From assembly GCA_963082975.1 (NCBI GenBank), contig OY720348.1:72131719-72195718 (forward strand): DNA of 64,000 bases. Direction: 5' to 3'. A program made the translations under genes and the position numbers. Below are positions 1-64,000 of the stretch, in pieces; position 1 is the stretch's first letter, and every line of letters begins with the position of its first letter. Under the pieces are notes generated by a model. The model made no database searches, was not told where the DNA came from, and was given only the letters and a program-made list of their open reading frames with translations. This stretch comes from Labia minor. Taxonomy: Eukaryota; Arthropoda; Insecta; Dermaptera; Spongiphoridae.

Positions 1-70
1 TTAAATAATGTTTTTTAAAAAGTTATTTGATTAATTTTTTTTCACTGACTCTAAATAGTTACTTCTATTA

Positions 71-160
71 GCATGCGACTGTACCTGTGAATTTTGCTAT
101 AAATACAGCCTGGACTATACATGGATTTCACTTTGTCTCCGGACTTCATAGCCGATACAC
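71..160 (+). promoter_or_regulatory. GC-rich core promoter island, copy 1 (TATA + initiator)
   Basis: These 90 bp contain 39 G or C (43%), against roughly 20% in the rest of the unit. TATAAATA lies at 98-105. An initiator-like TTCACT at 127-132 puts a candidate +1 A at 130, 32 bp after the first T of the TATA box, the spacing expected for RNA polymerase II; TCACTT differs by one base from the arthropod initiator consensus TCAKTY. The island also holds the palindromes GCATGC (71-76) and TCCGGA (138-143) and two related heptamers, CTGGACT (110-116) and CCGGACT (139-145), of unknown meaning. It is almost invariant across all 35 copies, so every gene appears to have its own promoter. The transcription start is predicted from spacing only. 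Confidence 0.7.
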
Positions 161-449
161 ACATTATCAAAATATTTTTAGTACAATTTCTATTTACTCA
201 TTAAATATTGATTCTTTTTAATTTCATTCTTTATCGACTCTGTGGATTAATTATTTTTATATATATATATTTATTTCATTTCATTGTAATTATTATTTAT
301 ATTATATTTTCAGAAAAATAATATTTTTCTTCTAAAATAACTTACAAATTATTCTTCAAACATAATTCTCTTTTTCTTTCATTGAATTATCAATTTTATT
401 TATTATTATCTATTGTAGGTATATCAAAGTTATTCTTTTCACTAACATA

Positions 450-971
450 ATGAATGTCAATTACGATTTATTTGCCTACAATTTTTCTTTATTTTCAGAA
501 TCCATCATTCTTAATGAAAATTTTATAAATAATTTACCAATCGAAATTATTGAAATTATATTTAACAAATTAGATATCGTTTCGTTATATCAATCATATC
601 ATGTCTGCAAAAAATGGAAAAGTATTATTAAAAAACATTCTCGATTATATAATAAAATAAAATCTTATAGAACATATAATAGACGCATGAATACCGATAT
701 AGAATTTCATATGAATGAAATTTCTAAAATAATTAATACGAGACATTATCAGAATAAATCCATTGATTCTATTAATTCTATTAATATCATCAATTCAAAC
801 ACTAGAAATATAATTAAATCAAACAAATTCTTAGATAGTAGAATAGTTGAAACCAGTGAAAATAGACAAATGACAAGAAAAAAGAAAACATTTTTAAAAC
901 AAACCACAAATCAAATTCAACATGAGAAACAAAACATTAAAAATAAACAAAAACTAAGACGATTATTATAA
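450..971 (+). CDS. Small F-box protein, copy 1 (173 aa, full length)
   Basis: Residues 27-70 match the F-box: Leu29-Pro30, then IEIIEIIFNKLD (31-42), Ser45-Leu46, and HVCKKW (51-56), which is the classic LP-E-I--IF--LD--SL---VCK-W pattern. F-boxes bind Skp1 and act as substrate adaptors of SCF E3 ubiquitin ligases in cytosol or nucleus. Residues 71-135 are Asn/Ile/Ser-rich with a small SIDSINSIN repeat (104-112). The tail is basic: RKKK (143-146), a possible nuclear signal, and KQKLRRLL (166-173). I see no LRR, WD40, Kelch, signal peptide or membrane segment, so the substrate is unknown; 173 residues is short for an F-box adaptor. The ATG at 450 has A at -3 and is the first ATG after the predicted transcription start. 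Codon 122 is Ile and codon 155 Gln. Codon 65 is CGA here, CGT in the other copies. Family assignment is firm; function beyond Skp1 binding is not. Confidence 0.82.
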   Translation: MNVNYDLFAYNFSLFSESIILNENFINNLPIEIIEIIFNKLDIVSLYQSYHVCKKWKSIIKKHSRLYNKIKSYRTYNRRMNTDIEFHMNEISKIINTRHYQNKSIDSINSINIINSNTRNIIKSNKFLDSRIVETSENRQMTRKKKTFLKQTTNQIQHEKQNIKNKQKLRRLL

Positions 972-1137
972 TTAATATATAAGAGATATTAACATGACAG
1001 ATGTAAGAGAGGGAAATATATTATTTTTTCCATCGAGTTGATATAATTTAATTAATACAACATCTCCTTATCAAAAAGATTTATTATTTATTAACATGTA
1101 CTAAAAATAATTTCTCTATTTAAAAATTTTTCCTTTT

Positions 1138-1163
1138 TTTTATTTATTTATTTATTTATTTAT
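1138..1163. repeat. TTTA microsatellite in the 3' spacer (copy 1)
   Basis: A run of T followed by about five TTTA units lies 170 bp after the stop codon. It recurs in every unit, for example around 3000, 4858 and 6728, with no length change noticed between copies. Confidence 0.9.
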
Positions 1164-1219
1164 AATACTTTCCTATTTTTGTTAGTTTTCATTATGTAAA
1201 CATTCCTATTATTTGAAAC

Positions 1220-2300: not shown

Positions 2301-2765
2301 ATGAATGTCAATTACGATTTATTTGCCTACAATTTTTCTTTATTTTCAGAATCCATCATTCTTAATGAAAATTTTATAAATAATTTACCAATCGAAATTA
2401 TTGAAATTATATTTAACAAATTAGATATCGTTTCGTTATATCAATCATATCATGTCTGCAAAAAATGGAAAAGTATTATTAAAAAACATTCTCGTTTATA
2501 TAATAAAATAAAATCTTATAGAACATATAATAGACGCATGAATACCGATATAGAATTTCATATGAATGAAATTTCTAAAATAATTAATACGAGACATTAT
2601 CAGAATAAATCCATTGATTCTATTAATTCTATTAATATCATCAATTCAAACACTAGAAATATAAATAAATCAAACAAATTCTTAGATAGTAGAATAGTTG
2701 AAACCAGTGAAAATAGACAAATGACAAGAAAAAAGAAAACATTTTTAAAACAAACCACAAATTAA
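2301..2765 (+). CDS. Small F-box protein, copy 2 (154 aa, premature stop)
   Basis: This is the first of eleven copies in which codon 155 is TAA instead of CAA, a single C-to-T change. The F-box (27-70) and RKKK (143-146) stay intact, but the last 19 residues, including the second basic cluster ending in RRLL, are lost. The old frame after the stop is still open down to the ancestral TAA at 2820-2822, so no other decay is seen. Codon 122 is AAT (Asn) instead of ATT (Ile). The product may be a functional shorter isoform, since an F-box alone can bind Skp1, or these copies may be early pseudogenes; the sequence alone does not decide. Confidence 0.68.
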   Translation: MNVNYDLFAYNFSLFSESIILNENFINNLPIEIIEIIFNKLDIVSLYQSYHVCKKWKSIIKKHSRLYNKIKSYRTYNRRMNTDIEFHMNEISKIINTRHYQNKSIDSINSINIINSNTRNINKSNKFLDSRIVETSENRQMTRKKKTFLKQTTN

Positions 2766-4167: not shown

Positions 4168-4632
4168 ATGAATGTCAATTACGATTTATTTGCCTACAAT
4201 TTTTCTTTATTTTCAGAATCCATCATTCTTAATGAAAATTTTATAAATAATTTACCAATCGAAATTATTGAAATTATATTTAACAAATTAGATATCGTTT
4301 CGTTATATCAATCATATCATGTCTGCAAAAAATGGAAAAGTATTATTAAAAAACATTCTCGTTTATATAATAAAATAAAATCTTATAGAACATATAATAG
4401 ACGCATGAATACCGATATAGAATTTCATATGAATGAAATTTCTAAAATAATTAATACGAGACATTATCAGAATAAATCCATTGATTCTATTAATTCTATT
4501 AATATCATCAATTCAAACACTAGAAATATAAATAAATCAAACAAATTCTTAGATAGTAGAATAGTTGAAACCAGTGAAAATAGACAAATGACAAGAAAAA
4601 AGAAAACATTTTTAAAACAAACCACAAATTAA
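4168..4632 (+). CDS. Small F-box protein, copy 3 (154 aa, premature stop)
   Basis: Protein identical to copy 2: Asn122 and TAA at codon 155 (4630-4632). F-box intact; C-terminal basic tail missing. Adjacent to another stop-bearing copy, which happens elsewhere in the window only for copies 22-23. Confidence 0.68.
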   Translation: MNVNYDLFAYNFSLFSESIILNENFINNLPIEIIEIIFNKLDIVSLYQSYHVCKKWKSIIKKHSRLYNKIKSYRTYNRRMNTDIEFHMNEISKIINTRHYQNKSIDSINSINIINSNTRNINKSNKFLDSRIVETSENRQMTRKKKTFLKQTTN

Positions 4633-6037: not shown

Positions 6038-6559
6038 ATGAATGTCAATTACGATTTATTTGCCTACAATTTTTCTTTATTTTCAGAATCCATCATTCTT
6101 AATGAAAATTTTATAAATAATTTACCAATCGAAATTATTGAAATTATATTTAACAAATTAGATATCGTTTCGTTATATCAATCATATCATGTCTGCAAAA
6201 AATGGAAAAGTATTATTAAAAAACATTCTCGTTTATATAATAAAATAAAATCTTATAGAACATATAATAGACGCATGAATACCGATATAGAATTTCATAT
6301 GAATGAAATTTCTAAAATAATTAATACGAGACATTATCAGAATAAATCCATTGATTCTATTAATTCTATTAATATCATCAATTCAAACACTAGAAATATA
6401 ATTAAATCAAACAAATTCTTAGATAGTAGAATAGTTGAAACCAGTGAAAATAGACAAATGACAAGAAAAAAGAAAACATTTTTAAAACAAACCACAAATC
6501 AAATTCAACATGAGAAACAAAACATTAAAAATAAACAAAAACTAAGACGATTATTATAA
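6038..6559 (+). CDS. Small F-box protein, copy 4 (173 aa, full length)
   Basis: Majority protein form with Ile122 and Gln155. Codon 65 is CGT, as in all copies but the first. It follows two stop-bearing copies and precedes another. Confidence 0.8.
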   Translation: MNVNYDLFAYNFSLFSESIILNENFINNLPIEIIEIIFNKLDIVSLYQSYHVCKKWKSIIKKHSRLYNKIKSYRTYNRRMNTDIEFHMNEISKIINTRHYQNKSIDSINSINIINSNTRNIIKSNKFLDSRIVETSENRQMTRKKKTFLKQTTNQIQHEKQNIKNKQKLRRLL

Positions 6560-7909: not shown

Positions 7910-8374
7910 ATGAATGTCAATTACGATTTATTTGCCTACAATTTTTCTTTATTTTCAGAATCCATCATTCTTAATGAAAATTTTATAAATAATTTACCAA
8001 TCGAAATTATTGAAATTATATTTAACAAATTAGATATCGTTTCGTTATATCAATCATATCATGTCTGCAAAAAATGGAAAAGTATTATTAAAAAACATTC
8101 TCGTTTATATAATAAAATAAAATCTTATAGAACATATAATAGACGCATGAATACCGATATAGAATTTCATATGAATGAAATTTCTAAAATAATTAATACG
8201 AGACATTATCAGAATAAATCCATTGATTCTATTAATTCTATTAATATCATCAATTCAAACACTAGAAATATAAATAAATCAAACAAATTCTTAGATAGTA
8301 GAATAGTTGAAACCAGTGAAAATAGACAAATGACAAGAAAAAAGAAAACATTTTTAAAACAAACCACAAATTAA
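7910..8374 (+). CDS. Small F-box protein, copy 5 (154 aa, premature stop)
   Basis: Asn122 with TAA at codon 155 (8372-8374). Same protein as copy 2 although the leader upstream is of the TGTG type, showing that the coding variant moves between leader backgrounds. Confidence 0.68.
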   Translation: MNVNYDLFAYNFSLFSESIILNENFINNLPIEIIEIIFNKLDIVSLYQSYHVCKKWKSIIKKHSRLYNKIKSYRTYNRRMNTDIEFHMNEISKIINTRHYQNKSIDSINSINIINSNTRNINKSNKFLDSRIVETSENRQMTRKKKTFLKQTTN

Positions 8375-9780: not shown

Positions 9781-10302
9781 ATGAATGTCAATTACGATTT
9801 ATTTGCCTACAATTTTTCTTTATTTTCAGAATCCATCATTCTTAATGAAAATTTTATAAATAATTTACCAATCGAAATTATTGAAATTATATTTAACAAA
9901 TTAGATATCGTTTCGTTATATCAATCATATCATGTCTGCAAAAAATGGAAAAGTATTATTAAAAAACATTCTCGTTTATATAATAAAATAAAATCTTATA
10001 GAACATATAATAGACGCATGAATACCGATATAGAATTTCATATGAATGAAATTTCTAAAATAATTAATACGAGACATTATCAGAATAAATCCATTGATTC
10101 TATTAATTCTATTAATATCATCAATTCAAACACTAGAAATATAATTAAATCAAACAAATTCTTAGATAGTAGAATAGTTGAAACCAGTGAAAATAGACAA
10201 ATGACAAGAAAAAAGAAAACATTTTTAAAACAAACCACAAATCAAATTCAACATGAGAAACAAAACATTAAAAATAAACAAAAACTAAGACGATTATTAT
10301 AA
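9781..10302 (+). CDS. Small F-box protein, copy 6 (173 aa, full length)
   Basis: Majority protein (Ile122, Gln155). First of four consecutive full-length copies (6-9). Confidence 0.8.
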   Translation: MNVNYDLFAYNFSLFSESIILNENFINNLPIEIIEIIFNKLDIVSLYQSYHVCKKWKSIIKKHSRLYNKIKSYRTYNRRMNTDIEFHMNEISKIINTRHYQNKSIDSINSINIINSNTRNIIKSNKFLDSRIVETSENRQMTRKKKTFLKQTTNQIQHEKQNIKNKQKLRRLL

Positions 10303-11650: not shown

Positions 11651-12172
11651 ATGAATGTCAATTACGATTTATTTGCCTACAATTTTTCTTTATTTTCAGA
11701 ATCCATCATTCTTAATGAAAATTTTATAAATAATTTACCAATCGAAATTATTGAAATTATATTTAACAAATTAGATATCGTTTCGTTATATCAATCATAT
11801 CATGTCTGCAAAAAATGGAAAAGTATTATTAAAAAACATTCTCGTTTATATAATAAAATAAAATCTTATAGAACATATAATAGACGCATGAATACCGATA
11901 TAGAATTTCATATGAATGAAATTTCTAAAATAATTAATACGAGACATTATCAGAATAAATCCATTGATTCTATTAATTCTATTAATATCATCAATTCAAA
12001 CACTAGAAATATAATTAAATCAAACAAATTCTTAGATAGTAGAATAGTTGAAACCAGTGAAAATAGACAAATGACAAGAAAAAAGAAAACATTTTTAAAA
12101 CAAACCACAAATCAAATTCAACATGAGAAACAAAACATTAAAAATAAACAAAAACTAAGACGATTATTATAA
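11651..12172 (+). CDS. Small F-box protein, copy 7 (173 aa, full length)
   Basis: Majority protein (Ile122, Gln155); no private change seen. Confidence 0.8.
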   Translation: MNVNYDLFAYNFSLFSESIILNENFINNLPIEIIEIIFNKLDIVSLYQSYHVCKKWKSIIKKHSRLYNKIKSYRTYNRRMNTDIEFHMNEISKIINTRHYQNKSIDSINSINIINSNTRNIIKSNKFLDSRIVETSENRQMTRKKKTFLKQTTNQIQHEKQNIKNKQKLRRLL

Positions 12173-13521: not shown

Positions 13522-14043
13522 ATGAATGTCAATTACGATTTATTTGCCTACAATTTTTCTTTATTTTCAGAATCCATCATTCTTAATGAAAATTTTATAA
13601 ATAATTTACCAATCGAAATTATTGAAATTATATTTAACAAATTAGATATCGTTTCGTTATATCAATCATATCATGTCTGCAAAAAATGGAAAAGTATTAT
13701 TAAAAAACATTCTCGTTTATATAATAAAATAAAATCTTATAGAACATATAATAGACGCATGAATACCGATATAGAATTTCATATGAATGAAATTTCTAAA
13801 ATAATTAATACGAGACATTATCAGAATAAATCCATTGATTCTATTAATTCTATTAATATCATCAATTCAAACACTAGAAATATAATTAAATCAAACAAAT
13901 TCTTAGATAGTAGAATAGTTGAAACCAGTGAAAATAGACAAATGACAAGAAAAAAGAAAACATTTTTAAAACAAACCACAAATCAAATTCAACATGAGAA
14001 ACAAAACATTAAAAATAAACAAAAACTAAGACGATTATTATAA
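13522..14043 (+). CDS. Small F-box protein, copy 8 (173 aa, full length)
   Basis: Majority protein (Ile122, Gln155). The sequence directly after the stop has the A-rich form TTAAAAAATATAAG, shared with copies 11, 15 and 18. Confidence 0.8.
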   Translation: MNVNYDLFAYNFSLFSESIILNENFINNLPIEIIEIIFNKLDIVSLYQSYHVCKKWKSIIKKHSRLYNKIKSYRTYNRRMNTDIEFHMNEISKIINTRHYQNKSIDSINSINIINSNTRNIIKSNKFLDSRIVETSENRQMTRKKKTFLKQTTNQIQHEKQNIKNKQKLRRLL

Positions 14044-15395: not shown

Positions 15396-15917
15396 ATGAA
15401 TGTCAATTACGATTTATTTGCCTACAATTTTTCTTTATTTTCAGAATCCATCATTCTTAATGAAAATTTTATAAATAATTTACCAATCGAAATTATTGAA
15501 ATTATATTTAACAAATTAGATATCGTTTCGTTATATCAATCATATCATGTCTGCAAAAAATGGAAAAGTATTATTAAAAAACATTCTCGTTTATATAATA
15601 AAATAAAATCTTATAGAACATATAATAGACGCATGAATACCGATATAGAATTTCATATGAATGAAATTTCTAAAATAATTAATACGAGACATTATCAGAA
15701 TAAATCCATTGATTCTATTAATTCTATTAATATCATCAATTCAAACACTAGAAATATAATTAAATCAAACAAATTCTTAGATAGTAGAATAGTTGAAACC
15801 AGTGAAAATAGACAAATGACAAGAAAAAAGAAAACATTTTTAAAACAAACCACAAATCAAATTCAACATGAGAAACAAAACATTAAAAATAAACAAAAAC
15901 TAAGACGATTATTATAA
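15396..15917 (+). CDS. Small F-box protein, copy 9 (173 aa, full length)
   Basis: Majority protein (Ile122, Gln155), behind a leader carrying the rare CTTACG variant. Confidence 0.8.
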   Translation: MNVNYDLFAYNFSLFSESIILNENFINNLPIEIIEIIFNKLDIVSLYQSYHVCKKWKSIIKKHSRLYNKIKSYRTYNRRMNTDIEFHMNEISKIINTRHYQNKSIDSINSINIINSNTRNIIKSNKFLDSRIVETSENRQMTRKKKTFLKQTTNQIQHEKQNIKNKQKLRRLL

Positions 15918-17266: not shown

Positions 17267-17731
17267 ATGAATGTCAATTACGATTTATTTGCCTACAATT
17301 TTTCTTTATTTTCAGAATCCATCATTCTTAATGAAAATTTTATAAATAATTTACCAATCGAAATTATTGAAATTATATTTAACAAATTAGATATCGTTTC
17401 GTTATATCAATCATATCATGTCTGCAAAAAATGGAAAAGTATTATTAAAAAACATTCTCGTTTATATAATAAAATAAAATCTTATAGAACATATAATAGA
17501 CGCATGAATACCGATATAGAATTTCATATGAATGAAATTTCTAAAATAATTAATACGAGACATTATCAGAATAAATCCATTGATTCTATTAATTCTATTA
17601 ATATCATCAATTCAAACACTAGAAATATAAATAAATCAAACAAATTCTTAGATAGTAGAATAGTTGAAACCAGTGAAAATAGACAAATGACAAGAAAAAA
17701 GAAAACATTTTTAAAACAAACCACAAATTAA
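17267..17731 (+). CDS. Small F-box protein, copy 10 (154 aa, premature stop)
   Basis: Asn122 and TAA at codon 155 (17729-17731). Third member of the 8-9-10 triplet that recurs as 15-16-17 and 18-19-20. Confidence 0.68.
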   Translation: MNVNYDLFAYNFSLFSESIILNENFINNLPIEIIEIIFNKLDIVSLYQSYHVCKKWKSIIKKHSRLYNKIKSYRTYNRRMNTDIEFHMNEISKIINTRHYQNKSIDSINSINIINSNTRNINKSNKFLDSRIVETSENRQMTRKKKTFLKQTTN

Positions 17732-19137: not shown

Positions 19138-19659
19138 ATGAATGTCAATTACGATTTATTTGCCTACAATTTTTCTTTATTTTCAGAATCCATCATTCTT
19201 AATGAAAATTTTATAAATAATTTACCAATCGAAATTATTGAAATTATATTTAACAAATTAGATATCGTTTCGTTATATCAATCATATCATGTCTGCAAAA
19301 AATGGAAAAGTATTATTAAAAAACATTCTCGTTTATATAATAAAATAAAATCTTATAGAACATATAATAGACGCATGAATACCGATATAGAATTTCATAT
19401 GAATGAAATTTCTAAAATAATTAATACGAGACATTATCAGAATAAATCCATTGATTCTATTAATTCTATTAATATCATCAATTCAAACACTAGAAATATA
19501 ATTAAATCAAACAAATTCTTAGATAGTAGAATAGTTGAAACCAGTGAAAATAGACAAATGACAAGAAAAAAGAAAACATTTTTAAAACAAACCACAAATC
19601 AAATTCAACATGAGAAACAAAACATTAAAAATAAACAAAAACTAAGACGATTATTATAA
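19138..19659 (+). CDS. Small F-box protein, copy 11 (173 aa, full length)
   Basis: Majority protein (Ile122, Gln155) with the A-rich sequence just after the stop. Confidence 0.8.
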   Translation: MNVNYDLFAYNFSLFSESIILNENFINNLPIEIIEIIFNKLDIVSLYQSYHVCKKWKSIIKKHSRLYNKIKSYRTYNRRMNTDIEFHMNEISKIINTRHYQNKSIDSINSINIINSNTRNIIKSNKFLDSRIVETSENRQMTRKKKTFLKQTTNQIQHEKQNIKNKQKLRRLL

Positions 19660-21010: not shown

Positions 21011-21532
21011 ATGAATGTCAATTACGATTTATTTGCCTACAATTTTTCTTTATTTTCAGAATCCATCATTCTTAATGAAAATTTTATAAATAATTTACCA
21101 ATCGAAATTATTGAAATTATATTTAACAAATTAGATATCGTTTCGTTATATCAATCATATCATGTCTGCAAAAAATGGAAAAGTATTATTAAAAAACATT
21201 CTCGTTTATATAATAAAATAAAATCTTATAGAACATATAATAGACGCATGAATACCGATATAGAATTTCATATGAATGAAATTTCTAAAATAATTAATAC
21301 GAGACATTATCAGAATAAATCCATTGATTCTATTAATTCTATTAATATCATCAATTCAAACACTAGAAATATAAATAAATCAAACAAATTCTTAGATAGT
21401 AGAATAGTTGAAACCAGTGAAAATAGACAAATGACAAGAAAAAAGAAAACATTTTTAAAACAAACCACAAATCAAATTCAACATGAGAAACAAAACATTA
21501 AAAATAAACAAAAACTAAGACGATTATTATAA
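21011..21532 (+). CDS. Small F-box protein, copy 12 (173 aa, Asn122 form)
   Basis: Full length with Gln155 but Asn at residue 122, the variant that elsewhere in copies 1-29 always travels with the premature stop. Either a recombinant between the two coding types or an ancestor-like state that predates the stop mutation. Confidence 0.79.
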   Translation: MNVNYDLFAYNFSLFSESIILNENFINNLPIEIIEIIFNKLDIVSLYQSYHVCKKWKSIIKKHSRLYNKIKSYRTYNRRMNTDIEFHMNEISKIINTRHYQNKSIDSINSINIINSNTRNINKSNKFLDSRIVETSENRQMTRKKKTFLKQTTNQIQHEKQNIKNKQKLRRLL

Positions 21533-22880: not shown

Positions 22881-23402
22881 ATGAATGTCAATTACGATTT
22901 ATTTGCCTACAATTTTTCTTTATTTTCAGAATCCATCATTCTTAATGAAAATTTTATAAATAATTTACCAATCGAAATTATTGAAATTATATTTAACAAA
23001 TTAGATATCGTTTCGTTATATCAATCATATCATGTCTGCAAAAAATGGAAAAGTATTATTAAAAAACATTCTCGTTTATATAATAAAATAAAATCTTATA
23101 GAACATATAATAGACGCATGAATACCGATATAGAATTTCATATGAATGAAATTTCTAAAATAATTAATACGAGACATTATCAGAATAAATCCATTGATTC
23201 TATTAATTCTATTAATATCATCAATTCAAACACTAGAAATATAATTAAATCAAACAAATTCTTAGATAGTAGAATAGTTGAAACCAGTGAAAATAGACAA
23301 ATGACAAGAAAAAAGAAAACATTTTTAAAACAAACCACAAATCAAATTCAACATGAGAAACAAAACATTAAAAATAAACAAAAACTAAGACGATTATTAT
23401 AA
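22881..23402 (+). CDS. Small F-box protein, copy 13 (173 aa, full length)
   Basis: Majority protein (Ile122, Gln155); no private change seen. Confidence 0.8.
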   Translation: MNVNYDLFAYNFSLFSESIILNENFINNLPIEIIEIIFNKLDIVSLYQSYHVCKKWKSIIKKHSRLYNKIKSYRTYNRRMNTDIEFHMNEISKIINTRHYQNKSIDSINSINIINSNTRNIIKSNKFLDSRIVETSENRQMTRKKKTFLKQTTNQIQHEKQNIKNKQKLRRLL

Positions 23403-24752: not shown

Positions 24753-25217
24753 ATGAATGTCAATTACGATTTATTTGCCTACAATTTTTCTTTATTTTCA
24801 GAATCCATCATTCTTAATGAAAATTTTATAAATAATTTACCAATCGAAATTATTGAAATTATATTTAACAAATTAGATATCGTTTCGTTATATCAATCAT
24901 ATCATGTCTGCAAAAAATGGAAAAGTATTATTAAAAAACATTCTCGTTTATATAATAAAATAAAATCTTATAGAACATATAATAGACGCATGAATACCGA
25001 TATAGAATTTCATATGAATGAAATTTCTAAAATAATTAATACGAGACATTATCAGAATAAATCCATTGATTCTATTAATTCTATTAATATCATCAATTCA
25101 AACACTAGAAATATAAATAAATCAAACAAATTCTTAGATAGTAGAATAGTTGAAACCAGTGAAAATAGACAAATGACAAGAAAAAAGAAAACATTTTTAA
25201 AACAAACCACAAATTAA
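24753..25217 (+). CDS. Small F-box protein, copy 14 (154 aa, premature stop)
   Basis: Asn122 and TAA at codon 155 (25215-25217); protein as copy 2. Confidence 0.68.
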   Translation: MNVNYDLFAYNFSLFSESIILNENFINNLPIEIIEIIFNKLDIVSLYQSYHVCKKWKSIIKKHSRLYNKIKSYRTYNRRMNTDIEFHMNEISKIINTRHYQNKSIDSINSINIINSNTRNINKSNKFLDSRIVETSENRQMTRKKKTFLKQTTN

Positions 25218-37857: not shown

Positions 37858-38379
37858 ATGAATGTCAATTACGATTTATTTGCCTACAATTTTTCTTTAT
37901 TTTCAGAATCCATCATTCTTAATGAAAATTTTATAAATAATTTACCAATCGAAATTATTGAAATTATATTTAACAAATTAGATATCGTTTCGTTATATCA
38001 ATCATATCATGTCTGCAAAAAATGGAAAAGTATTATTAAAAAACATTCTCGTTTATATAATAAAATAAAATCTTATAGAACATATAATAGACGCATGAAT
38101 ACCGATATAGAATTTCATATGAATGAAATTTCTAAAATAATTAATACGAGACATTATCAGAATAAATCCATTGATTCTATTAATTCTATTAATATCATCA
38201 ATTCAAACACTAGAAATATAATTAAATCAAACAAATTCTTAGATAGTAGAATAGTTGAAACCAGTGAAAATAGACAAATGACAAGAAAAAAGAAAACATT
38301 TTTAAAACAAACCACAAATCAAATTCAACATGAGAAACAAAACATTAAAAATAAACAAAAACTAAGACGATTATTATAA
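37858..38379 (+). CDS. Small F-box protein, copy 21 (173 aa, full length)
   Basis: Majority protein (Ile122, Gln155); counterpart of copy 24. Confidence 0.8.
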   Translation: MNVNYDLFAYNFSLFSESIILNENFINNLPIEIIEIIFNKLDIVSLYQSYHVCKKWKSIIKKHSRLYNKIKSYRTYNRRMNTDIEFHMNEISKIINTRHYQNKSIDSINSINIINSNTRNIIKSNKFLDSRIVETSENRQMTRKKKTFLKQTTNQIQHEKQNIKNKQKLRRLL

Positions 38380-39730: not shown

Positions 39731-40195
39731 ATGAATGTCAATTACGATTTATTTGCCTACAATTTTTCTTTATTTTCAGAATCCATCATTCTTAATGAAA
39801 ATTTTATAAATAATTTACCAATCGAAATTATTGAAATTATATTTAACAAATTAGATATCGTTTCGTTATATCAATCATATCATGTCTGCAAAAAATGGAA
39901 AAGTATTATTAAAAAACATTCTCGTTTATATAATAAAATAAAATCTTATAGAACATATAATAGACGCATGAATACCGATATAGAATTTCATATGAATGAA
40001 ATTTCTAAAATAATTAATACGAGACATTATCAGAATAAATCCATTGATTCTATTAATTCTATTAATATCATCAATTCAAACACTAGAAATATAAATAAAT
40101 CAAACAAATTCTTAGATAGTAGAATAGTTGAAACCAGTGAAAATAGACAAATGACAAGAAAAAAGAAAACATTTTTAAAACAAACCACAAATTAA
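39731..40195 (+). CDS. Small F-box protein, copy 22 (154 aa, premature stop)
   Basis: Asn122 and TAA at codon 155 (40193-40195). Directly followed by another stop-bearing copy. Confidence 0.68.
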   Translation: MNVNYDLFAYNFSLFSESIILNENFINNLPIEIIEIIFNKLDIVSLYQSYHVCKKWKSIIKKHSRLYNKIKSYRTYNRRMNTDIEFHMNEISKIINTRHYQNKSIDSINSINIINSNTRNINKSNKFLDSRIVETSENRQMTRKKKTFLKQTTN

Positions 40196-41587: not shown

Positions 41588-42052
41588 ATGAATGTCAATT
41601 ACGATTTATTTGCCTACAATTTTTCTTTATTTTCAGAATCCATCATTCTTAATGAAAATTTTATAAATAATTTACCAATCGAAATTATTGAAATTATATT
41701 TAACAAATTAGATATCGTTTCGTTATATCAATCATATCATGTCTGCAAAAAATGGAAAAGTATTATTAAAAAACATTCTCGTTTATATAATAAAATAAAA
41801 TCTTATAGAACATATAATAGACGCATGAATACCGATATAGAATTTCATATGAATGAAATTTCTAAAATAATTAATACGAGACATTATCAGAATAAATCCA
41901 TTGATTCTATTAATTCTATTAATATCATCAATTCAAACACTAGAAATATAAATAAATCAAACAAATTCTTAGATAGTAGAATAGTTGAAACCAGTGAAAA
42001 TAGACAAATGACAAGAAAAAAGAAAACATTTTTAAAACAAACCACAAATTAA
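41588..42052 (+). CDS. Small F-box protein, copy 23 (154 aa, premature stop)
   Basis: Asn122 and TAA at codon 155 (42050-42052); counterpart of copy 20. Confidence 0.68.
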   Translation: MNVNYDLFAYNFSLFSESIILNENFINNLPIEIIEIIFNKLDIVSLYQSYHVCKKWKSIIKKHSRLYNKIKSYRTYNRRMNTDIEFHMNEISKIINTRHYQNKSIDSINSINIINSNTRNINKSNKFLDSRIVETSENRQMTRKKKTFLKQTTN

Positions 42053-43458: not shown

Positions 43459-43980
43459 ATGAATGTCAATTACGATTTATTTGCCTACAATTTTTCTTTA
43501 TTTTCAGAATCCATCATTCTTAATGAAAATTTTATAAATAATTTACCAATCGAAATTATTGAAATTATATTTAACAAATTAGATATCGTTTCGTTATATC
43601 AATCATATCATGTCTGCAAAAAATGGAAAAGTATTATTAAAAAACATTCTCGTTTATATAATAAAATAAAATCTTATAGAACATATAATAGACGCATGAA
43701 TACCGATATAGAATTTCATATGAATGAAATTTCTAAAATAATTAATACGAGACATTATCAGAATAAATCCATTGATTCTATTAATTCTATTAATATCATC
43801 AATTCAAACACTAGAAATATAATTAAATCAAACAAATTCTTAGATAGTAGAATAGTTGAAACCAGTGAAAATAGACAAATGACAAGAAAAAAGAAAACAT
43901 TTTTAAAACAAACCACAAATCAAATTCAACATGAGAAACAAAACATTAAAAATAAACAAAAACTAAGACGATTATTATAA
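43459..43980 (+). CDS. Small F-box protein, copy 24 (173 aa, full length)
   Basis: Majority protein (Ile122, Gln155); counterpart of copy 21. Confidence 0.8.
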   Translation: MNVNYDLFAYNFSLFSESIILNENFINNLPIEIIEIIFNKLDIVSLYQSYHVCKKWKSIIKKHSRLYNKIKSYRTYNRRMNTDIEFHMNEISKIINTRHYQNKSIDSINSINIINSNTRNIIKSNKFLDSRIVETSENRQMTRKKKTFLKQTTNQIQHEKQNIKNKQKLRRLL

Positions 43981-45331: not shown

Positions 45332-45796
45332 ATGAATGTCAATTACGATTTATTTGCCTACAATTTTTCTTTATTTTCAGAATCCATCATTCTTAATGAA
45401 AATTTTATAAATAATTTACCAATCGAAATTATTGAAATTATATTTAACAAATTAGATATCGTTTCGTTATATCAATCATATCATGTCTGCAAAAAATGGA
45501 AAAGTATTATTAAAAAACATTCTCGTTTATATAATAAAATAAAATCTTATAGAACATATAATAGACGCATGAATACCGATATAGAATTTCATATGAATGA
45601 AATTTCTAAAATAATTAATACGAGACATTATCAGAATAAATCCATTGATTCTATTAATTCTATTAATATCATCAATTCAAACACTAGAAATATAAATAAA
45701 TCAAACAAATTCTTAGATAGTAGAATAGTTGAAACCAGTGAAAATAGACAAATGACAAGAAAAAAGAAAACATTTTTAAAACAAACCACAAATTAA
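45332..45796 (+). CDS. Small F-box protein, copy 25 (154 aa, premature stop)
   Basis: Asn122 and TAA at codon 155 (45794-45796); protein as copy 2. Confidence 0.68.
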   Translation: MNVNYDLFAYNFSLFSESIILNENFINNLPIEIIEIIFNKLDIVSLYQSYHVCKKWKSIIKKHSRLYNKIKSYRTYNRRMNTDIEFHMNEISKIINTRHYQNKSIDSINSINIINSNTRNINKSNKFLDSRIVETSENRQMTRKKKTFLKQTTN

Positions 45797-47200: not shown

Positions 47201-47722
47201 ATGAATGTCAATTACGATTTATTTGCCTACAATTTTTCTTTATTTTCAGAATCCATCATTCTTAATGAAAATTTTATAAATAATTTACCAATCGAAATTA
47301 TTGAAATTATATTTAACAAATTAGATATCGTTTCGTTATATCAATCATATCATGTCTGCAAAAAATGGAAAAGTATTATTAAAAAACATTCTCGTTTATA
47401 TAATAAAATAAAATCTTATAGAACATATAATAGACGCATGAATACCGATATAGAATTTCATATGAATGAAATTTCTAAAATAATTAATACGAGACATTAT
47501 CAGAATAAATCCATTGATTCTATTAATTCTATTAATATCATCAATTCAAACACTAGAAATATAATTAAATCAAACAAATTCTTAGATAGTAGAATAGTTG
47601 AAACCAGTGAAAATAGACAAATGACAAGAAAAAAGAAAACATTTTTAAAACAAACCACAAATCAAATTCAACATGAGAAACAAAACATTAAAAATAAACA
47701 AAAACTAAGACGATTATTATAA
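47201..47722 (+). CDS. Small F-box protein, copy 26 (173 aa, full length)
   Basis: Majority protein (Ile122, Gln155); no private change seen. Confidence 0.8.
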   Translation: MNVNYDLFAYNFSLFSESIILNENFINNLPIEIIEIIFNKLDIVSLYQSYHVCKKWKSIIKKHSRLYNKIKSYRTYNRRMNTDIEFHMNEISKIINTRHYQNKSIDSINSINIINSNTRNIIKSNKFLDSRIVETSENRQMTRKKKTFLKQTTNQIQHEKQNIKNKQKLRRLL

Positions 47723-49069: not shown

Positions 49070-49591
49070 ATGAATGTCAATTACGATTTATTTGCCTACA
49101 ATTTTTCTTTATTTTCAGAATCCATCATTCTTAATGAAAATTTTATAAATAATTTACCAATCGAAATTATTGAAATTATATTTAACAAATTAGATATCGT
49201 TTCGTTATATCAATCATATCATGTCTGCAAAAAATGGAAAAGTATTATTAAAAAACATTCTCGTTTATATAATAAAATAAAATCTTATAGAACATATAAT
49301 AGACGCATGAATACCGATATAGAATTTCATATGAATGAAATTTCTAAAATAATTAATACGAGACATTATCAGAATAAATCCATTGATTCTATTAATTCTA
49401 TTAATATCATCAATTCAAACACTAGAAATATAATTAAATCAAACAAATTCTTAGATAGTAGAATAGTTGAAACCAGTGAAAATAGACAAATGACAAGAAA
49501 AAAGAAAACATTTTTAAAACAAACCACAAATCAAATTCAACATGAGAAACAAAACATTAAAAATAAACAAAAACTAAGACGATTATTATAA
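49070..49591 (+). CDS. Small F-box protein, copy 27 (173 aa, full length)
   Basis: Majority protein (Ile122, Gln155), behind one of the two promoters that lack the GCATGC palindrome. Confidence 0.8.
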   Translation: MNVNYDLFAYNFSLFSESIILNENFINNLPIEIIEIIFNKLDIVSLYQSYHVCKKWKSIIKKHSRLYNKIKSYRTYNRRMNTDIEFHMNEISKIINTRHYQNKSIDSINSINIINSNTRNIIKSNKFLDSRIVETSENRQMTRKKKTFLKQTTNQIQHEKQNIKNKQKLRRLL

Positions 49592-50941: not shown

Positions 50942-51406
50942 ATGAATGTCAATTACGATTTATTTGCCTACAATTTTTCTTTATTTTCAGAATCCATCAT
51001 TCTTAATGAAAATTTTATAAATAATTTACCAATCGAAATTATTGAAATTATATTTAACAAATTAGATATCGTTTCGTTATATCAATCATATCATGTCTGC
51101 AAAAAATGGAAAAGTATTATTAAAAAACATTCTCGTTTATATAATAAAATAAAATCTTATAGAACATATAATAGACGCATGAATACCGATATAGAATTTC
51201 ATATGAATGAAATTTCTAAAATAATTAATACGAGACATTATCAGAATAAATCCATTGATTCTATTAATTCTATTAATATCATCAATTCAAACACTAGAAA
51301 TATAAATAAATCAAACAAATTCTTAGATAGTAGAATAGTTGAAACCAGTGAAAATAGACAAATGACAAGAAAAAAGAAAACATTTTTAAAACAAACCACA
51401 AATTAA
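50942..51406 (+). CDS. Small F-box protein, copy 28 (154 aa, premature stop)
   Basis: Asn122 and TAA at codon 155 (51404-51406). No truncated copy occurs to its right within the window. Confidence 0.68.
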   Translation: MNVNYDLFAYNFSLFSESIILNENFINNLPIEIIEIIFNKLDIVSLYQSYHVCKKWKSIIKKHSRLYNKIKSYRTYNRRMNTDIEFHMNEISKIINTRHYQNKSIDSINSINIINSNTRNINKSNKFLDSRIVETSENRQMTRKKKTFLKQTTN

Positions 51407-52810: not shown

Positions 52811-53332
52811 ATGAATGTCAATTACGATTTATTTGCCTACAATTTTTCTTTATTTTCAGAATCCATCATTCTTAATGAAAATTTTATAAATAATTTACCA
52901 ATCGAAATTATTGAAATTATATTTAACAAATTAGATATCGTTTCGTTATATCAATCATATCATGTCTGCAAAAAATGGAAAAGTATTATTAAAAAACATT
53001 CTCGTTTATATAATAAAATAAAATCTTATAGAACATATAATAGACGCATGAATACCGATATAGAATTTCATATGAATGAAATTTCTAAAATAATTAATAC
53101 GAGACATTATCAGAATAAATCCATTGATTCTATTAATTCTATTAATATCATCAATTCAAACACTAGAAATATAATTAAATCAAACAAATTCTTAGATAGT
53201 AGAATAGTTGAAACCAGTGAAAATAGACAAATGACAAGAAAAAAGAAAACATTTTTAAAACAAACCACAAATCAAATTCAACATGAGAAACAAAACATTA
53301 AAAATAAACAAAAACTAAGACGATTATTATAA
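52811..53332 (+). CDS. Small F-box protein, copy 29 (173 aa, full length)
   Basis: Majority protein (Ile122, Gln155); second gene behind a promoter lacking the GCATGC palindrome. Confidence 0.8.
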   Translation: MNVNYDLFAYNFSLFSESIILNENFINNLPIEIIEIIFNKLDIVSLYQSYHVCKKWKSIIKKHSRLYNKIKSYRTYNRRMNTDIEFHMNEISKIINTRHYQNKSIDSINSINIINSNTRNIIKSNKFLDSRIVETSENRQMTRKKKTFLKQTTNQIQHEKQNIKNKQKLRRLL

Positions 53333-54680: not shown

Positions 54681-55202
54681 ATGAATGTCAATTACGATTT
54701 ATTTGCCTACAATTTTTCTTTATTTTCAGAATCCATCATTCTTAATGAAAATTTTATAAATAATTTACCAATCGAAATTATTGAAATTATATTTAACAAA
54801 TTAGATATCGTTTCGTTATATCAATCATATCATGTCTGCAAAAAATGGAAAAGTATTATTAAAAAACATTCTCGTTTATATAATAAAATAAAATCTTATA
54901 GAACATATAATAGACGCATGAATACCGATATAGAATTTCATATGAATGAAATTTCTAAAATAATTAATACGAGACATTATCAGAATAAATCCATTGATTC
55001 TATTAATTCTATTAATATCATCAATTCAAACACTAGAAATATAAATAAATCAAACAAATTCTTAGATAGTAGAATAGTTGAAACCAGTGAAAATAGACAA
55101 ATGACAAGAATAAAGAAAACATTTTTAAAACAAACCACAAATCAAATTCAACATGAGAAACAAAACATTAAAAATAAACAAAAACTAAGACGATTATTAT
55201 AA
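54681..55202 (+). CDS. Small F-box protein, copy 30 (173 aa, Asn122, Lys144Ile)
   Basis: Full length with Asn122 and Gln155. An A-to-T change at 55111 turns codon 144 from AAA to ATA, so the basic cluster RKKK (143-146) becomes RIKK. This is the only amino-acid change private to one copy in the array. Confidence 0.79.
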   Translation: MNVNYDLFAYNFSLFSESIILNENFINNLPIEIIEIIFNKLDIVSLYQSYHVCKKWKSIIKKHSRLYNKIKSYRTYNRRMNTDIEFHMNEISKIINTRHYQNKSIDSINSINIINSNTRNINKSNKFLDSRIVETSENRQMTRIKKTFLKQTTNQIQHEKQNIKNKQKLRRLL

Positions 55203-56550: not shown

Positions 56551-57072
56551 ATGAATGTCAATTACGATTTATTTGCCTACAATTTTTCTTTATTTTCAGA
56601 ATCCATCATTCTTAATGAAAATTTTATAAATAATTTACCAATCGAAATTATTGAAATTATATTTAACAAATTAGATATCGTTTCGTTATATCAATCATAT
56701 CATGTCTGCAAAAAATGGAAAAGTATTATTAAAAAACATTCTCGTTTATATAATAAAATAAAATCTTATAGAACATATAATAGACGCATGAATACCGATA
56801 TAGAATTTCATATGAATGAAATTTCTAAAATAATTAATACGAGACATTATCAGAATAAATCCATTGATTCTATTAATTCTATTAATATCATCAATTCAAA
56901 CACTAGAAATATAAATAAATCAAACAAATTCTTAGATAGTAGAATAGTTGAAACCAGTGAAAATAGACAAATGACAAGAAAAAAGAAAACATTTTTAAAA
57001 CAAACCACAAATCAAATTCAACATGAGAAACAAAACATTAAAAATAAACAAAAACTAAGACGATTATTATAA
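56551..57072 (+). CDS. Small F-box protein, copy 31 (173 aa, Asn122 form)
   Basis: Full length with Asn122 and Gln155, same protein as copies 12, 33 and 34. Confidence 0.79.
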   Translation: MNVNYDLFAYNFSLFSESIILNENFINNLPIEIIEIIFNKLDIVSLYQSYHVCKKWKSIIKKHSRLYNKIKSYRTYNRRMNTDIEFHMNEISKIINTRHYQNKSIDSINSINIINSNTRNINKSNKFLDSRIVETSENRQMTRKKKTFLKQTTNQIQHEKQNIKNKQKLRRLL

Positions 57073-58420: not shown

Positions 58421-58942
58421 ATGAATGTCAATTACGATTTATTTGCCTACAATTTTTCTTTATTTTCAGAATCCATCATTCTTAATGAAAATTTTATAAA
58501 TAATTTACCAATCGAAATTATTGAAATTATATTTAACAAATTAGATATCGTTTCGTTATATCAATCATATCATGTCTGCAAAAAATGGAAAAGTATTATT
58601 AAAAAACATTCTCGTTTATATAATAAAATAAAATCTTATAGAACATATAATAGACGCATGAATACCGATATAGAATTTCATATGAATGAAATTTCTAAAA
58701 TAATTAATACGAGACATTATCAGAATAAATCCATTGATTCTATTAATTCTATTAATATCATCAATTCAAACACTAGAAATATAATTAAATCAAACAAATT
58801 CTTAGATAGTAGAATAGTTGAAACCAGTGAAAATAGACAAATGACAAGAAAAAAGAAAACATTTTTAAAACAAACCACAAATCAAATTCAACATGAGAAA
58901 CAAAACATTAAAAATAAACAAAAACTAAGACGATTATTATAA
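58421..58942 (+). CDS. Small F-box protein, copy 32 (173 aa, full length)
   Basis: Majority protein (Ile122, Gln155) flanked on both sides by Asn122 copies within the TTAG-leader block, so codon 122 has been exchanged independently of the leader. Confidence 0.8.
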   Translation: MNVNYDLFAYNFSLFSESIILNENFINNLPIEIIEIIFNKLDIVSLYQSYHVCKKWKSIIKKHSRLYNKIKSYRTYNRRMNTDIEFHMNEISKIINTRHYQNKSIDSINSINIINSNTRNIIKSNKFLDSRIVETSENRQMTRKKKTFLKQTTNQIQHEKQNIKNKQKLRRLL

Positions 58943-60290: not shown

Positions 60291-60812
60291 ATGAATGTCA
60301 ATTACGATTTATTTGCCTACAATTTTTCTTTATTTTCAGAATCCATCATTCTTAATGAAAATTTTATAAATAATTTACCAATCGAAATTATTGAAATTAT
60401 ATTTAACAAATTAGATATCGTTTCGTTATATCAATCATATCATGTCTGCAAAAAATGGAAAAGTATTATTAAAAAACATTCTCGTTTATATAATAAAATA
60501 AAATCTTATAGAACATATAATAGACGCATGAATACCGATATAGAATTTCATATGAATGAAATTTCTAAAATAATTAATACGAGACATTATCAGAATAAAT
60601 CCATTGATTCTATTAATTCTATTAATATCATCAATTCAAACACTAGAAATATAAATAAATCAAACAAATTCTTAGATAGTAGAATAGTTGAAACCAGTGA
60701 AAATAGACAAATGACAAGAAAAAAGAAAACATTTTTAAAACAAACCACAAATCAAATTCAACATGAGAAACAAAACATTAAAAATAAACAAAAACTAAGA
60801 CGATTATTATAA
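60291..60812 (+). CDS. Small F-box protein, copy 33 (173 aa, Asn122 form)
   Basis: Full length with Asn122 and Gln155. Confidence 0.79.
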   Translation: MNVNYDLFAYNFSLFSESIILNENFINNLPIEIIEIIFNKLDIVSLYQSYHVCKKWKSIIKKHSRLYNKIKSYRTYNRRMNTDIEFHMNEISKIINTRHYQNKSIDSINSINIINSNTRNINKSNKFLDSRIVETSENRQMTRKKKTFLKQTTNQIQHEKQNIKNKQKLRRLL

Positions 60813-61781
60813 TTAATATATAAGAGATATTAACATGACAGATGTAAGAGAGGGAAATATATTATTTTTTCCATCGAGTTGATATAATTTAATTAATACA
60901 ACATCTCCTTATCAAAAAGATTTATTATTTATTAACATGTACTAAAAATAATTTCTCTATTTAAAAATTTTTCCTTTTTTTTATTTATTTATTTATTTAT
61001 TTATAATACTTTCCTATTTTTGTTAGTTTTCATTATGTAAACATTCCTATTATTTGAAACAATAAATTTATTTATTCTAACAATTTCTATTATAATTTTA
61101 TTTTGTTTGTTACTTTTACCTCAAAAATTTGAATAAAAATCTCAAGTTTGAAAAATATTTCTTATTATTTCATTTATTTTTTTAGTTTAACCTTATATAT
61201 TTCCTTTATTCTATTTACATTTTTATTTATTATACTCACTTGTATCCAGATTTTGCTTTTTTCAATAGTTGTACTTGAAAATAAAAAATATTTATTTAAT
61301 TGTTTTTCTTTAGTTTGATACTACCATTCTTTAAACTGTACTATTTTCAATTAATATGTAGATATATCTCTAAATTTATATCTGAAAATCACAAAACTTT
61401 TATTAATTCGTTGTCATTATATTTCATTAGATTGACAAATAATTTAAAATATAATATTTTATTCATTTCAAGTATTTTAAAATTCAGTTGTTTTTTTTTT
61501 TATAAAAAATATTACTAATAAAGAAAAAAACAATTTAATTAGAATATGATAGAAATATGTTCTTAAACAAATAATTTAATAACAACAAACAAAATAATTC
61601 ATTAAAATTAATAAATAAAATTATGTGTGAATGTTCAAAAACAATAAAGATTAAATTAATATTATTATTTTTTAATTTTTTTTTTATTTTTAAATATTTA
61701 TTATTTATTTTTAAATAATGTTTTTTAAAAAGTTATTTGATTAATTTTTTTTTCACTGACTCTAAATAGTTACTTCTATTA

Positions 61782-61871
61782 GCATGCGACTGTACCTGTG
61801 AATTTTGCTATAAATACAGCCTGGACTATACATGGATTTCACTTTGTCTCCGGACTTCATAGCCGATACAC
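61782..61871 (+). promoter_or_regulatory. Core promoter island, copy 34
   Basis: TATAAATA at 61809-61816. No change from copy 1 seen. Confidence 0.68.
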
Positions 61872-62160
61872 ACATTATCAAAATATTTTTAGTACAATTT
61901 CTATTTACTCATTAAATATTGATTCTTTTTAATTTCATTCTTTATCGACTCTGTGGATTAATTATTTTTATATATATATATTTATTTCATTTCATTGTAA
62001 TTATTATTTATATTATATTTTCAGAAAAATAATATTTTTCTTCTAAAATAACTTACAAATTATTCTTCAAACATAATTCTCTTTTTCTTTCATTGAATTA
62101 TCAATTTTATTTATTATTATCTATTGTAGGTATATCAAAGTTATTCTTTTCACTAACATA

Positions 62161-62682
62161 ATGAATGTCAATTACGATTTATTTGCCTACAATTTTTCTT
62201 TATTTTCAGAATCCATCATTCTTAATGAAAATTTTATAAATAATTTACCAATCGAAATTATTGAAATTATATTTAACAAATTAGATATCGTTTCGTTATA
62301 TCAATCATATCATGTCTGCAAAAAATGGAAAAGTATTATTAAAAAACATTCTCGTTTATATAATAAAATAAAATCTTATAGAACATATAATAGACGCATG
62401 AATACCGATATAGAATTTCATATGAATGAAATTTCTAAAATAATTAATACGAGACATTATCAGAATAAATCCATTGATTCTATTAATTCTATTAATATCA
62501 TCAATTCAAACACTAGAAATATAAATAAATCAAACAAATTCTTAGATAGTAGAATAGTTGAAACCAGTGAAAATAGACAAATGACAAGAAAAAAGAAAAC
62601 ATTTTTAAAACAAACCACAAATCAAATTCAACATGAGAAACAAAACATTAAAAATAAACAAAAACTAAGACGATTATTATAA
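62161..62682 (+). CDS. Small F-box protein, copy 34 (173 aa, Asn122 form)
   Basis: Full length with Asn122 and Gln155; last complete gene in the window. Confidence 0.79.
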   Translation: MNVNYDLFAYNFSLFSESIILNENFINNLPIEIIEIIFNKLDIVSLYQSYHVCKKWKSIIKKHSRLYNKIKSYRTYNRRMNTDIEFHMNEISKIINTRHYQNKSIDSINSINIINSNTRNINKSNKFLDSRIVETSENRQMTRKKKTFLKQTTNQIQHEKQNIKNKQKLRRLL

Positions 62683-63580
62683 TTAATATATAAGAGATAT
62701 TAACATGACAGATGTAAGAGAGGGAAATATATTATTTTTTCCATCGAGTTGATATAATTTAATTAATACAACATCTCCTTATCAAAAAGATTTATTATTT
62801 ATTAACATGTACTAAAAATAATTTCTCTATTTAAAAATTTTTCCTTTTTTTTATTTATTTATTTATTTATTTATAATACTTTCCTATTTTTGTTAGTTTT
62901 CATTATGTAAACATTCCTATTATTTGAAACAATAAATTTATTTATTCTAACAATTTCTATTATAATTTTATTTTGTTTGTTACTTTTACCTCAAAAATTT
63001 GAATAAAAATCTCAAGTTTGAAAAATATTTCTTATTATTTCATTTATTTTTTTAGTTTAACCTTATATATTTCCTTTATTCTATTTACATTTTTATTTAT
63101 TATACTCACTTGTATCCAGATTTTGCTTTTTTCAATAGTTGTACTTGAAAATAAAAAATATTTATTTAATTGTTTTTCTTTAGTTTGATACTACCATTCT
63201 TTAAACTGTACTATTTTCAATTAATATGTAGATATATCTCTAAATTTATATCTGAAAATCACAAAACTTTTATTAATTCGTTGTCATTATATTTCATTAG
63301 ATTGACAAATAATTTAAAATATAATATTTTATTCATTTCAAGTATTTTAAAATTCAGTTGTTTTTTTTTTTATAAAAAATATTACTAATAAAGAAAAAAA
63401 CAATTTAATTAGAATATGATAGAAATATGTTCTTAAACAAATAATTTAATAACAACAAACAAAATAATTCATTAAAATTAATAAATAAAATTATGTGTGA
63501 ATGTTCAAAAACAATAAAGATTAAATTAATATTATTATTTTTTAATTTTTTTTTTATTTTTAAATATTTATTATTTATTT

Positions 63581-64000
63581 TTAAATAATGTTTTTTAAAA
63601 AGTTATTTGATTAATTTTTTTTTCACTGACTCTAAATAGTTACTTCTATTAGCATGCGACTGTACCTGTGAATTTTGCTATAAATACAGCCTGGACTATA
63701 CATGGATTTCACTTTGTCTCCGGACTTCATAGCCGATACACACATTATCAAAATATTTTTAGTACAATTTCTATTTACTCATTAAATATTGATTCTTTTT
63801 AATTTCATTCTTTATCGACTCTGTGGATTAATTATTTTTATATATATATATTTATTTCATTTCATTGTAATTATTATTTATATTATATTTTCAGAAAAAT
63901 AATATTTTTCTTCTAAAATAACTTACAAATTATTCTTCAAACATAATTCTCTTTTTCTTTCATTGAATTATCAATTTTATTTATTATTATCTATTGTAGG
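63581..64000 (+). repeat. Repeat unit 35 (partial, cut by window edge)
   Basis: First 420 bp of a unit. Code so far: 9 | TGTG | T | A. It ends in the leader at TATTGTAGG, about 30 bp before where the next start codon should lie (about 64031), so the array continues to the right. Confidence 0.96.
63652..63741 (+). promoter_or_regulatory. Core promoter island, copy 35
   Basis: TATAAATA at 63679-63686. Its gene lies beyond the window. Confidence 0.67.

Follow-up and report, generated by a model that had tools for sequence, protein, structure and literature searches.

X-linked tandem arrays of a short F-box gene in the lesser earwig, Labia minor, and a separate amplification of Skp1-like genes

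Why would a short F-box gene be repeated dozens of times, almost without change, on one insect chromosome? The question is raised by a 64,000-nt stretch of the genome of the lesser earwig, Labia minor (C10:72,131,719-72,195,718 of the 604-Mb genome; 'the window' below), which holds 34 complete tandem F-box units and a partial 35th (1..64000), all on the + strand. A preliminary description of the window had recognised such an array and compared it with genetic-conflict genes such as Drosophila Stellate. Analysis of the wider genome places the family in arrays on the X chromosome and, separately, reveals an amplification of genes resembling Skp1, the binding partner of F-box proteins. Together these suggest a genetic tug-of-war involving the sex chromosomes.

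Structure of the array

Units in the window are spaced 1853-1874 bp apart, a typical unit being ~1871 bp (~1.87 kb). There are 27 distinct sequences among the 34 complete units, with a mean pairwise identity of 99.79% and a minimum of 99.51%. Unit count, strand and identity thus agree with the array of near-identical units in one orientation first described. Each complete unit has a TATAAATA box, ~350 bp leading to the start codon, and then an open reading frame (ORF). In unit 1 the box lies at 98..105; a 29-mer over this TATA-like box has 35 exact copies in the window (the last at ~63677-63705) and a 30-mer over the start codon has 34, all on the + strand, the 35th unit being interrupted by the window end ahead of its ATG. 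The reported conservation of TATA box and start codon in all copies is therefore confirmed. Because these motifs sit inside a homogenised array, however, their identity is not independent evidence of function. The leader of unit 1 is putatively placed at 130..449, which presumes a transcription start site (TSS) ~30 bp past the TATA box; it contains no ATG, against 2.5 expected (P=0.083).

Pfam identifies an F-box at residues 26-65 of the predicted protein (525..644 in copy 1; PF00646, E 2.7e-8, 33.8 bits vs a cut-off of 20.5), and a second F-box model, PF12937, concurs (E 6.7e-8, 32.6 bits vs 24.3), so that the naming of a short F-box gene stands. Up to E 10, Pfam returned F-box models only, with no WD40 or leucine-rich repeat (LRR) substrate-binding domain matched; an 'F-box only' architecture is allowed within the F-box protein family. 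From domain homology, the product is a putative substrate receptor of Skp1-cullin-F-box (SCF) ubiquitin ligases, which would bind Skp1 and present its substrate to Cul1. By our own estimate from base frequencies, 173 stop-free codons in sequence of ~18% GC would arise by chance with a probability of ~2e-7. Among solved structures, phmmer gave a sole, weak match to the F-box region of yeast Cdc4 (E 0.13). Rfam gave no match up to E 1 in window positions 1-4000, ARAGORN found no tRNA in the window, the best match to PHROGs was no better than E 0.078, and of 24 pattern matches in viral contigs none was confirmed by tblastn.

The ORF is 173 aa long in 23/34 copies, whose coding sequences (CDS) lie on the + strand at 450..971 (copy 1), 6038..6559 (4), 9781..10302 (6), 11651..12172 (7), 13522..14043 (8), 15396..15917 (9), 19138..19659 (11), 21011..21532 (12), 22881..23402 (13), 26624..27145 (15), 28498..29019 (16), 32240..32761 (18), 34113..34634 (19), 37858..38379 (21), 43459..43980 (24), 47201..47722 (26), 49070..49591 (27), 52811..53332 (29), 54681..55202 (30), 56551..57072 (31), 58421..58942 (32), 60291..60812 (33) and 62161..62682 (34). 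In the other 11/34 a C-to-T change converts Q155 to a stop, 19 codons early and downstream of the F-box, leaving a 154-aa ORF; these lie, on the same strand, at 2301..2765 (copy 2), 4168..4632 (3), 7910..8374 (5), 17267..17731 (10), 24753..25217 (14), 30369..30833 (17), 35987..36451 (20), 39731..40195 (22), 41588..42052 (23), 45332..45796 (25) and 50942..51406 (28). The near-absence of protein divergence in the preliminary description accords with the identity of the units, but this truncated form had gone unmentioned. I/N and stop/non-stop variants are interleaved along the array, the pattern expected from repeated unequal exchange or conversion.

Extent of the family on the X chromosome

The seven large contigs of the Labia minor assembly are chromosomes 1-6 and X (PMC11829193, Table 1), X having been recognised by the assemblers from its half coverage in one HiFi-sequenced male (PMC11937785). 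Contig C10 is the X chromosome, 76,888,567 bp long and with a (TTCGG)n telomere at its right end. The window forms the middle of an array of 45 CDS copies, which by BLAST of the unit spans C10:72,117,810-72,204,719. In all, three X arrays and a lone copy were located, the arrays at 49.71-50.63, 65.88-66.16 and 72.12-72.20 Mb and the lone copy at 69.18 Mb. The window array is on the + strand and those at 50 and 65.9 Mb on the - strand, and unit periods differ between arrays (about 1657, 1862 and 1871 bp).

All genome lists consist of best-ranked candidates, so that restriction to X holds among the matches listed, and weaker autosomal or unplaced copies are possible. At DNA level, the best 40 of 338 candidates fall on C10 without exception (40/40), as do the best 150 of 857 in the protein search (150/150; at 50.45-50.56, 65.99-66.16, 69.18 and 72.12-72.20 Mb). 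The best 150 of 925 candidates for the Pfam F-box profile comprise 135 on C10, by which the first X array is lengthened to 49.71-50.63 Mb, and 15 on the autosomal contigs C1, C2, C4, C5 and C9, dispersed save for two close pairs (C9 and C2). In control genomes the profile gave a match in 1/14, below cut-off. The protein and profile lists, merged, contain at least 280 distinct X copies; adding 26 copies (one partial) found directly at 65.85-65.94 Mb, and counting 45 in place of 31 in the window array, gives at least 320. Dividing the 49.71-50.63 Mb span by its 1657-bp period yields ~554 copies if the array were continuous, which is not a count; stretches of 157 and 358 kb inside it are without a listed copy. 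With a kilobase unit that holds one ORF, repeated in tandem tens to hundreds of times and, among the matches listed, confined to a single chromosome, the family has the attributes of a gene-bearing macrosatellite. Equally, the family is multicopy, homogenised and sex-chromosomal, as are ampliconic conflict genes of the Stellate and Slx/Sly class.

Most frames are open. Direct reading of 82 copies gave 68 full ORFs, 12 of the 154-aa form, one frameshifted by a one-base deletion and one partial copy; among the 80 gap-free full-length CDS copies, 68 are fully intact and the other 12 are short of only 19 C-terminal residues. In the X rows of the F-box profile list, the full frame (220 or 201 codons) is present in 120/135 and 6 have other lengths. 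The 220-codon frame belongs to units of the 50 Mb array (49.71-50.63 Mb): those read are without 213 bp of leader, and the loss brings the F-box ORF into frame with an ATG that neighbours the TATA box. This ATG, upstream of the expected TSS, is probably untranslated. Intron loss by retroposition was considered for these units and rejected; the break is at a TATTTA microhomology and not at splice sites, which indicates a deletion.

A cluster of Skp1-like genes on autosome 5

F-box proteins work by binding Skp1. Two high-scoring Skp1 loci are present in the genome, at C2:39.35 Mb and C6:53.79 Mb. In addition, C6 (autosome 5) carries a cluster of diverged, mostly tandem Skp1-like copies at C6:18,439,833-19,154,050 (including the stretch 18,476,800-18,479,100). 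With all 23 candidates of the Skp1-domain search scored, 19 matches lie in this cluster, 3 of them with one in-frame stop; the Skp1_POZ search, likewise with all of its 23 candidates scored, gives 17 cluster copies that have both domain pieces over cut-off and no stops. Six intervals within the cluster measure 7012-7015 bp. Outside it there are three weaker Skp1_POZ rows, one on C1, one on X and one, containing a stop, on C2, which possibly represent related domains such as elongin C; the match on X (C10:21,167,931-21,168,032, - strand, 27.4 bits) is over cut-off and may be elongin C-like. Cullins, searched as a control, gave 31 exon matches at 5 separate loci, with no tandem clustering.

A single copy of the cluster was read from end to end: it is an intact three-exon gene of 151 aa in which both domains are over cut-off (Skp1_POZ 88.0 bits, Skp1 52.5 bits). 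It aligns with residues 1-150 of human Skp1 and ends 12 residues early, its C-terminal tail being incomplete; 41-42 of the 57 positions of its last exon match canonical Skp1. In PDB 1fs1, with molecules named Skp1 and p45 (the latter presumably Skp2), the Skp1 chain ends at the position equivalent to residue 147. Loss of the tail may therefore be compatible with F-box binding. The separate tandem family bears on the earlier proposal that the array titrates Skp1, and the Stellate-type comparison has gained weight from it and from the X location.

Age, homogenisation and constraint

A comparison of the flanks of the window locus with those of the 65.88 Mb locus gives 213 substitutions over 16,675 sites (1.28%). 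Majority units of the two arrays, built from 43 and 20 units of regular length, differ at 0/129 promoter, 0/313 leader, 2/522 CDS and 6/878 3' sites; taken whole, the unit has diverged less than the flanks have (8/1842 vs 213/16675, p=0.0006). Since the amplicon flanks are 1.28% apart, the arrays have a greater age than the likeness of their units implies and are kept alike by homogenisation. The inference first drawn from low protein divergence, that of selection for dosage or a very recent expansion, is consequently not upheld; the ORF shows only faint signs of selection.

In 63 units, distinct gap intervals are rarely placed within the CDS (1 in CDS vs 21 elsewhere, p=0.014; many gaps are in homopolymers, which the test ignores). 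When six copies taken from four places were compared pairwise (15 comparisons), the promoter block showed no difference. The synonymous share of changes (p=0.16) and the comparison of CDS with flanks (p=0.07) do not demonstrate strong purifying selection on the coding sequence. Weakly, these data point to some, but not strong, constraint on the ORF, much of the similarity probably being due to homogenisation.

Surroundings of the arrays

Immunoglobulin (Ig) and fibronectin type III (FN3) exons of a titin/projectin-like gene lie in the flanks on either side of the window array and in the one to the left of the 65.88 Mb array. One fragment of these frames was confirmed by Pfam and PDB searches, kinship of the flanks being by BLAST. 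The window-array flanks share a 16-kb block at 99.87% identity (C10:72,090,001-72,105,976 and 72,215,569-72,231,554), of which the left copy stops exactly at an assembly gap. With all 15 candidates scored, a 1.5-kb piece of flank recurs at full length ten times at >=98% identity, nine of these copies being on X and one on C5 (chromosome 4): C10 15,520,365; 15,710,470; 15,887,233; 65,881,813; 69,180,699; 72,083,383; 72,205,001; 72,308,384 and 76,540,139, and C5:83,037,648. Adjacency to F-box units was examined for five of the ten (65.88, 69.18, 72.205, X:15.52 and C5:83.04 Mb). Three of these five, at 65.88, 69.18 and 72.205 Mb, have F-box units as neighbours; therefore, the arrays beside titin-like fragments are parts of larger X amplicons. 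An F-box unit next to every titin-like fragment was considered and rejected, because the C5:83.04 Mb and X:15.52 Mb copies have none at the corresponding distance. What stands there instead, by eye, is a retroelement-like frame for the C5 fragment and one more Ig-type exon for the 15.52 Mb fragment; the latter copy may be the parent gene.

Mobile elements are also apparent at these loci. A 909-codon frame resembling a long interspersed nuclear element (LINE) lies in both flank copies, at C10:72,096,402 and 72,221,979, and belongs to the endonuclease-reverse transcriptase family by Pfam (first 300 residues). Retroelement-like frames are inserted in the 65.9 Mb array at C10:65,884,500-65,886,200 and 65,887,500-65,893,500; by eye, these are a 121-codon frame found on both strands (GIY-YIG/Penelope-like) and a gag-pol-like element.

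Explanations for the amplification

The explanation favoured here, drawn from sequence comparison, is that an X-linked ampliconic F-box gene has been amplified under sex-chromosome conflict and acts through SCF; it is offered tentatively, at somewhat less than an even chance. The mechanism is modelled on mouse Slx/Sly and Drosophila Stellate. In germ-line cells, chiefly male ones, the F-box protein would join SCF ubiquitin ligases via Skp1. Conflict between the sex chromosomes during gametogenesis would push up X copy number, with more copies favouring X or its opponents, and the F-box genes would be either an X-linked dose-dependent distorter or the response of X to an opponent on Y or an autosome. 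The copies would be kept alike by unequal exchange and gene conversion. The autosomal Skp1-like cluster would be a dedicated partner or a counter-adaptation. A more specific version, in which a two-locus arms race within one ubiquitin ligase would set an X F-box distorter against autosomal tail-less Skp1 decoys or a re-tuned adaptor, with a Y or spermatogenesis protein as target, is rather unlikely.

Amplification under conflict has in its favour the X location, the presence of three arrays plus a lone copy instead of one array, the prevalence of open frames, the scarcity of gaps in the CDS (p=0.014), the agreement of promoter blocks between arrays and places, and the Skp1-like amplification in a genome whose cullins are not clustered. 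Several observations weigh against it. The 154-aa allele is common in the window, and a 115-codon frame occurs in 9/135 X profile rows, as a sub-family at C10 50.48-50.63 Mb; the one of the nine that was read, in part, at 50.625 Mb, has a 4-bp insertion (+4 frameshift) after the F-box. The CDS alone falls below flank divergence only at p=0.07, and its changes are synonymous in 4/12 cases vs 18% expected (p=0.16; 80 gap-free full-length copies). Homogenisation alone can explain the low divergence of the whole unit. Nor is the promoter block invariant: two of its sites vary within the window array and, by eye, the 49.712 Mb copy differs at two positions ahead of its TATA box. The 15 autosomal profile matches, known from their profile score, may include distant relatives of the family. 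A Y was expected by the assemblers but is absent from the assembly (PMC11937785). The coincidence of F-box and Skp1 amplification is suggestive only, because Skp1 families also expand in other lineages, e.g. to 21 Skp1-like genes in Arabidopsis (PMC3511428).

In the strongest competing view, the repeat would be a passive macrosatellite that happens to bear a gene, like RS447 or D4Z4 (PMC3018141); this is a serious contender although we lean towards doubting it. An ordinary F-box gene at the breakpoint of a titin-like X amplicon would have been propagated through unequal exchange without profiting either the organism or X, its frames still open because homogenisation is recent. The strong homogeneity within the array is in keeping with this, as is the fact that the whole unit, and not the CDS alone, is less diverged than the flanks (p=0.0006). 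So are the position of the unit beside duplicated titin-like fragments and the spread of both the nonsense allele (11/34 window copies) and the 115-codon frame (9/135 X rows). However, a passive repeat sits less well with a full frame in 120/135 X rows and with gap intervals that avoid the CDS (p=0.014), and it leaves the separate Skp1-like amplification unexplained.

It is distinctly unlikely that the copies answer a high demand for one F-box protein, for instance in the ovary or early embryo, as histone and rRNA arrays do for their products, with the X location incidental. A TATA-like box and ORF in every complete unit, and the ATG-free leader of unit 1, would suit such a gene, and a mouse oocyte-specific cluster of 13 F-box genes has been described (PMC1166550); yet hundreds of copies of a substrate adaptor are, in our judgement, hard to account for in this way, all located family copies are on X (among the matches listed), and the truncated allele is frequent. 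A structural or regulatory X repeat, in which the array itself matters, as proposed for DXZ4, and the ORF is a relic, is very unlikely: a tandem macrosatellite on X does recall DXZ4 (PMC3018141, PMC3218863), but the ORF is largely intact with a good F-box, and the Skp1-like cluster would be unaccounted for. Scarcely credible is an assembly artefact with far fewer real copies since, despite 200-N gaps at C10 72105977-72106176 and 65910117-65910316 and a single HiFi-sequenced male as source (PMC11937785), 27/34 window units are distinct, the male X is hemizygous and should not gain copies through haplotype duplication, the 16-kb flank copies differ by ~0.13%, too much for an assembly of quality value (QV) 57.7 (PMC11937785), the arrays differ in period (about 1657, 1862 and 1871), and gaps tend to conceal copies.

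Relation to known systems

Amplification under sex-chromosome conflict has partial counterparts elsewhere. Stellate is a short gene with its own promoter. In Drosophila melanogaster it is an X-linked, tandemly repeated protein gene (PMC10618873), and in these respects Stellate/Su(Ste) resembles the earwig array. It differs in that Stellate is a relative of casein kinase II beta, whereas the earwig gene encodes an F-box protein and the extra amplification is Skp1-like and autosomal. The Drosophila system also has a Y-linked antisense suppressor; the earwig assembly contains no Y. Mouse Slx/Slxl1 and Sly involve a multicopy X-linked gene whose dose matters in conflict with Y (PMC11668290). The earwig family is likewise multicopy and X-linked; Slx/Slxl1-Sly, however, is Sycp3-like, with 50-100 copies and a known Y counterpart, in contrast to an F-box family of at least 320 copies in an assembly without Y. 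Human RS447 (USP17) and D4Z4 (DUX4) are gene-bearing macrosatellites with a kilobase unit, one ORF and tens to >100 tandem copies (PMC3018141), a kilobase unit, one ORF and many tandem copies being what they share with the earwig array. They are autosomal, with known polymorphism, and encode a deubiquitinating enzyme (RS447) or a homeobox protein rather than an F-box protein; the earwig array is known from one individual.

Amplified or clustered F-box genes have likewise been described. Plant S-locus F-box (SLF) genes are diverse and not homogenised. They pair with pollen-specific SSK1, a specialised Skp1-like adaptor (PMC4106197), and so offer a parallel of multiple F-box genes, there at a reproductive locus, with a specialised Skp1-like partner; bridging by SSK1 has been shown in plants, whereas pairing in the earwig is inferred only. 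The oocyte-specific cluster on mouse chromosome 9 (FBXO12 and relatives) is germ-line expressed (PMC1166550) and, as in the earwig arrays, its F-box genes are clustered; it differs in being autosomal and in that its 13 genes carry WD40 repeats. In Drosophila, genes that have been co-amplified often descend from meiosis genes and are often small-RNA targets (PMC6690552). The main text of that study has no words beginning F-box, Skp or ubiquitin, and the F-box case would therefore be new among such Drosophila genes. Among the papers listed in literature searches, a scope outside which preprints and most subscription papers fall, none gives an account of this array or of an earwig Skp1 cluster in its title or abstract opening, and the part of the Labia minor genome paper covered here mentions neither (PMC11937785). 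An X-linked ampliconic gene in tandem arrays is already known as a kind; what sets the earwig case apart as new is that the gene encodes an F-box protein, how many copies there are, and that Skp1-like genes have been amplified separately.

Amplification of X-linked genes is documented in mouse and Drosophila (PMC11668290, PMC6690552, PMC10618873), from both of which earwigs (Polyneoptera) branch far. Through an F-box protein, such amplification would be linked with biochemical machinery that is already known. If the arrays are silent or neutral, they would still be large gene-bearing tandem repeats on an insect X, with an intact-looking ORF riding on a satellite. If the F-box and Skp1-like proteins are expressed in the germ line and bind one another, sex-chromosome conflict would become open to simple protein-binding and dosage experiments.

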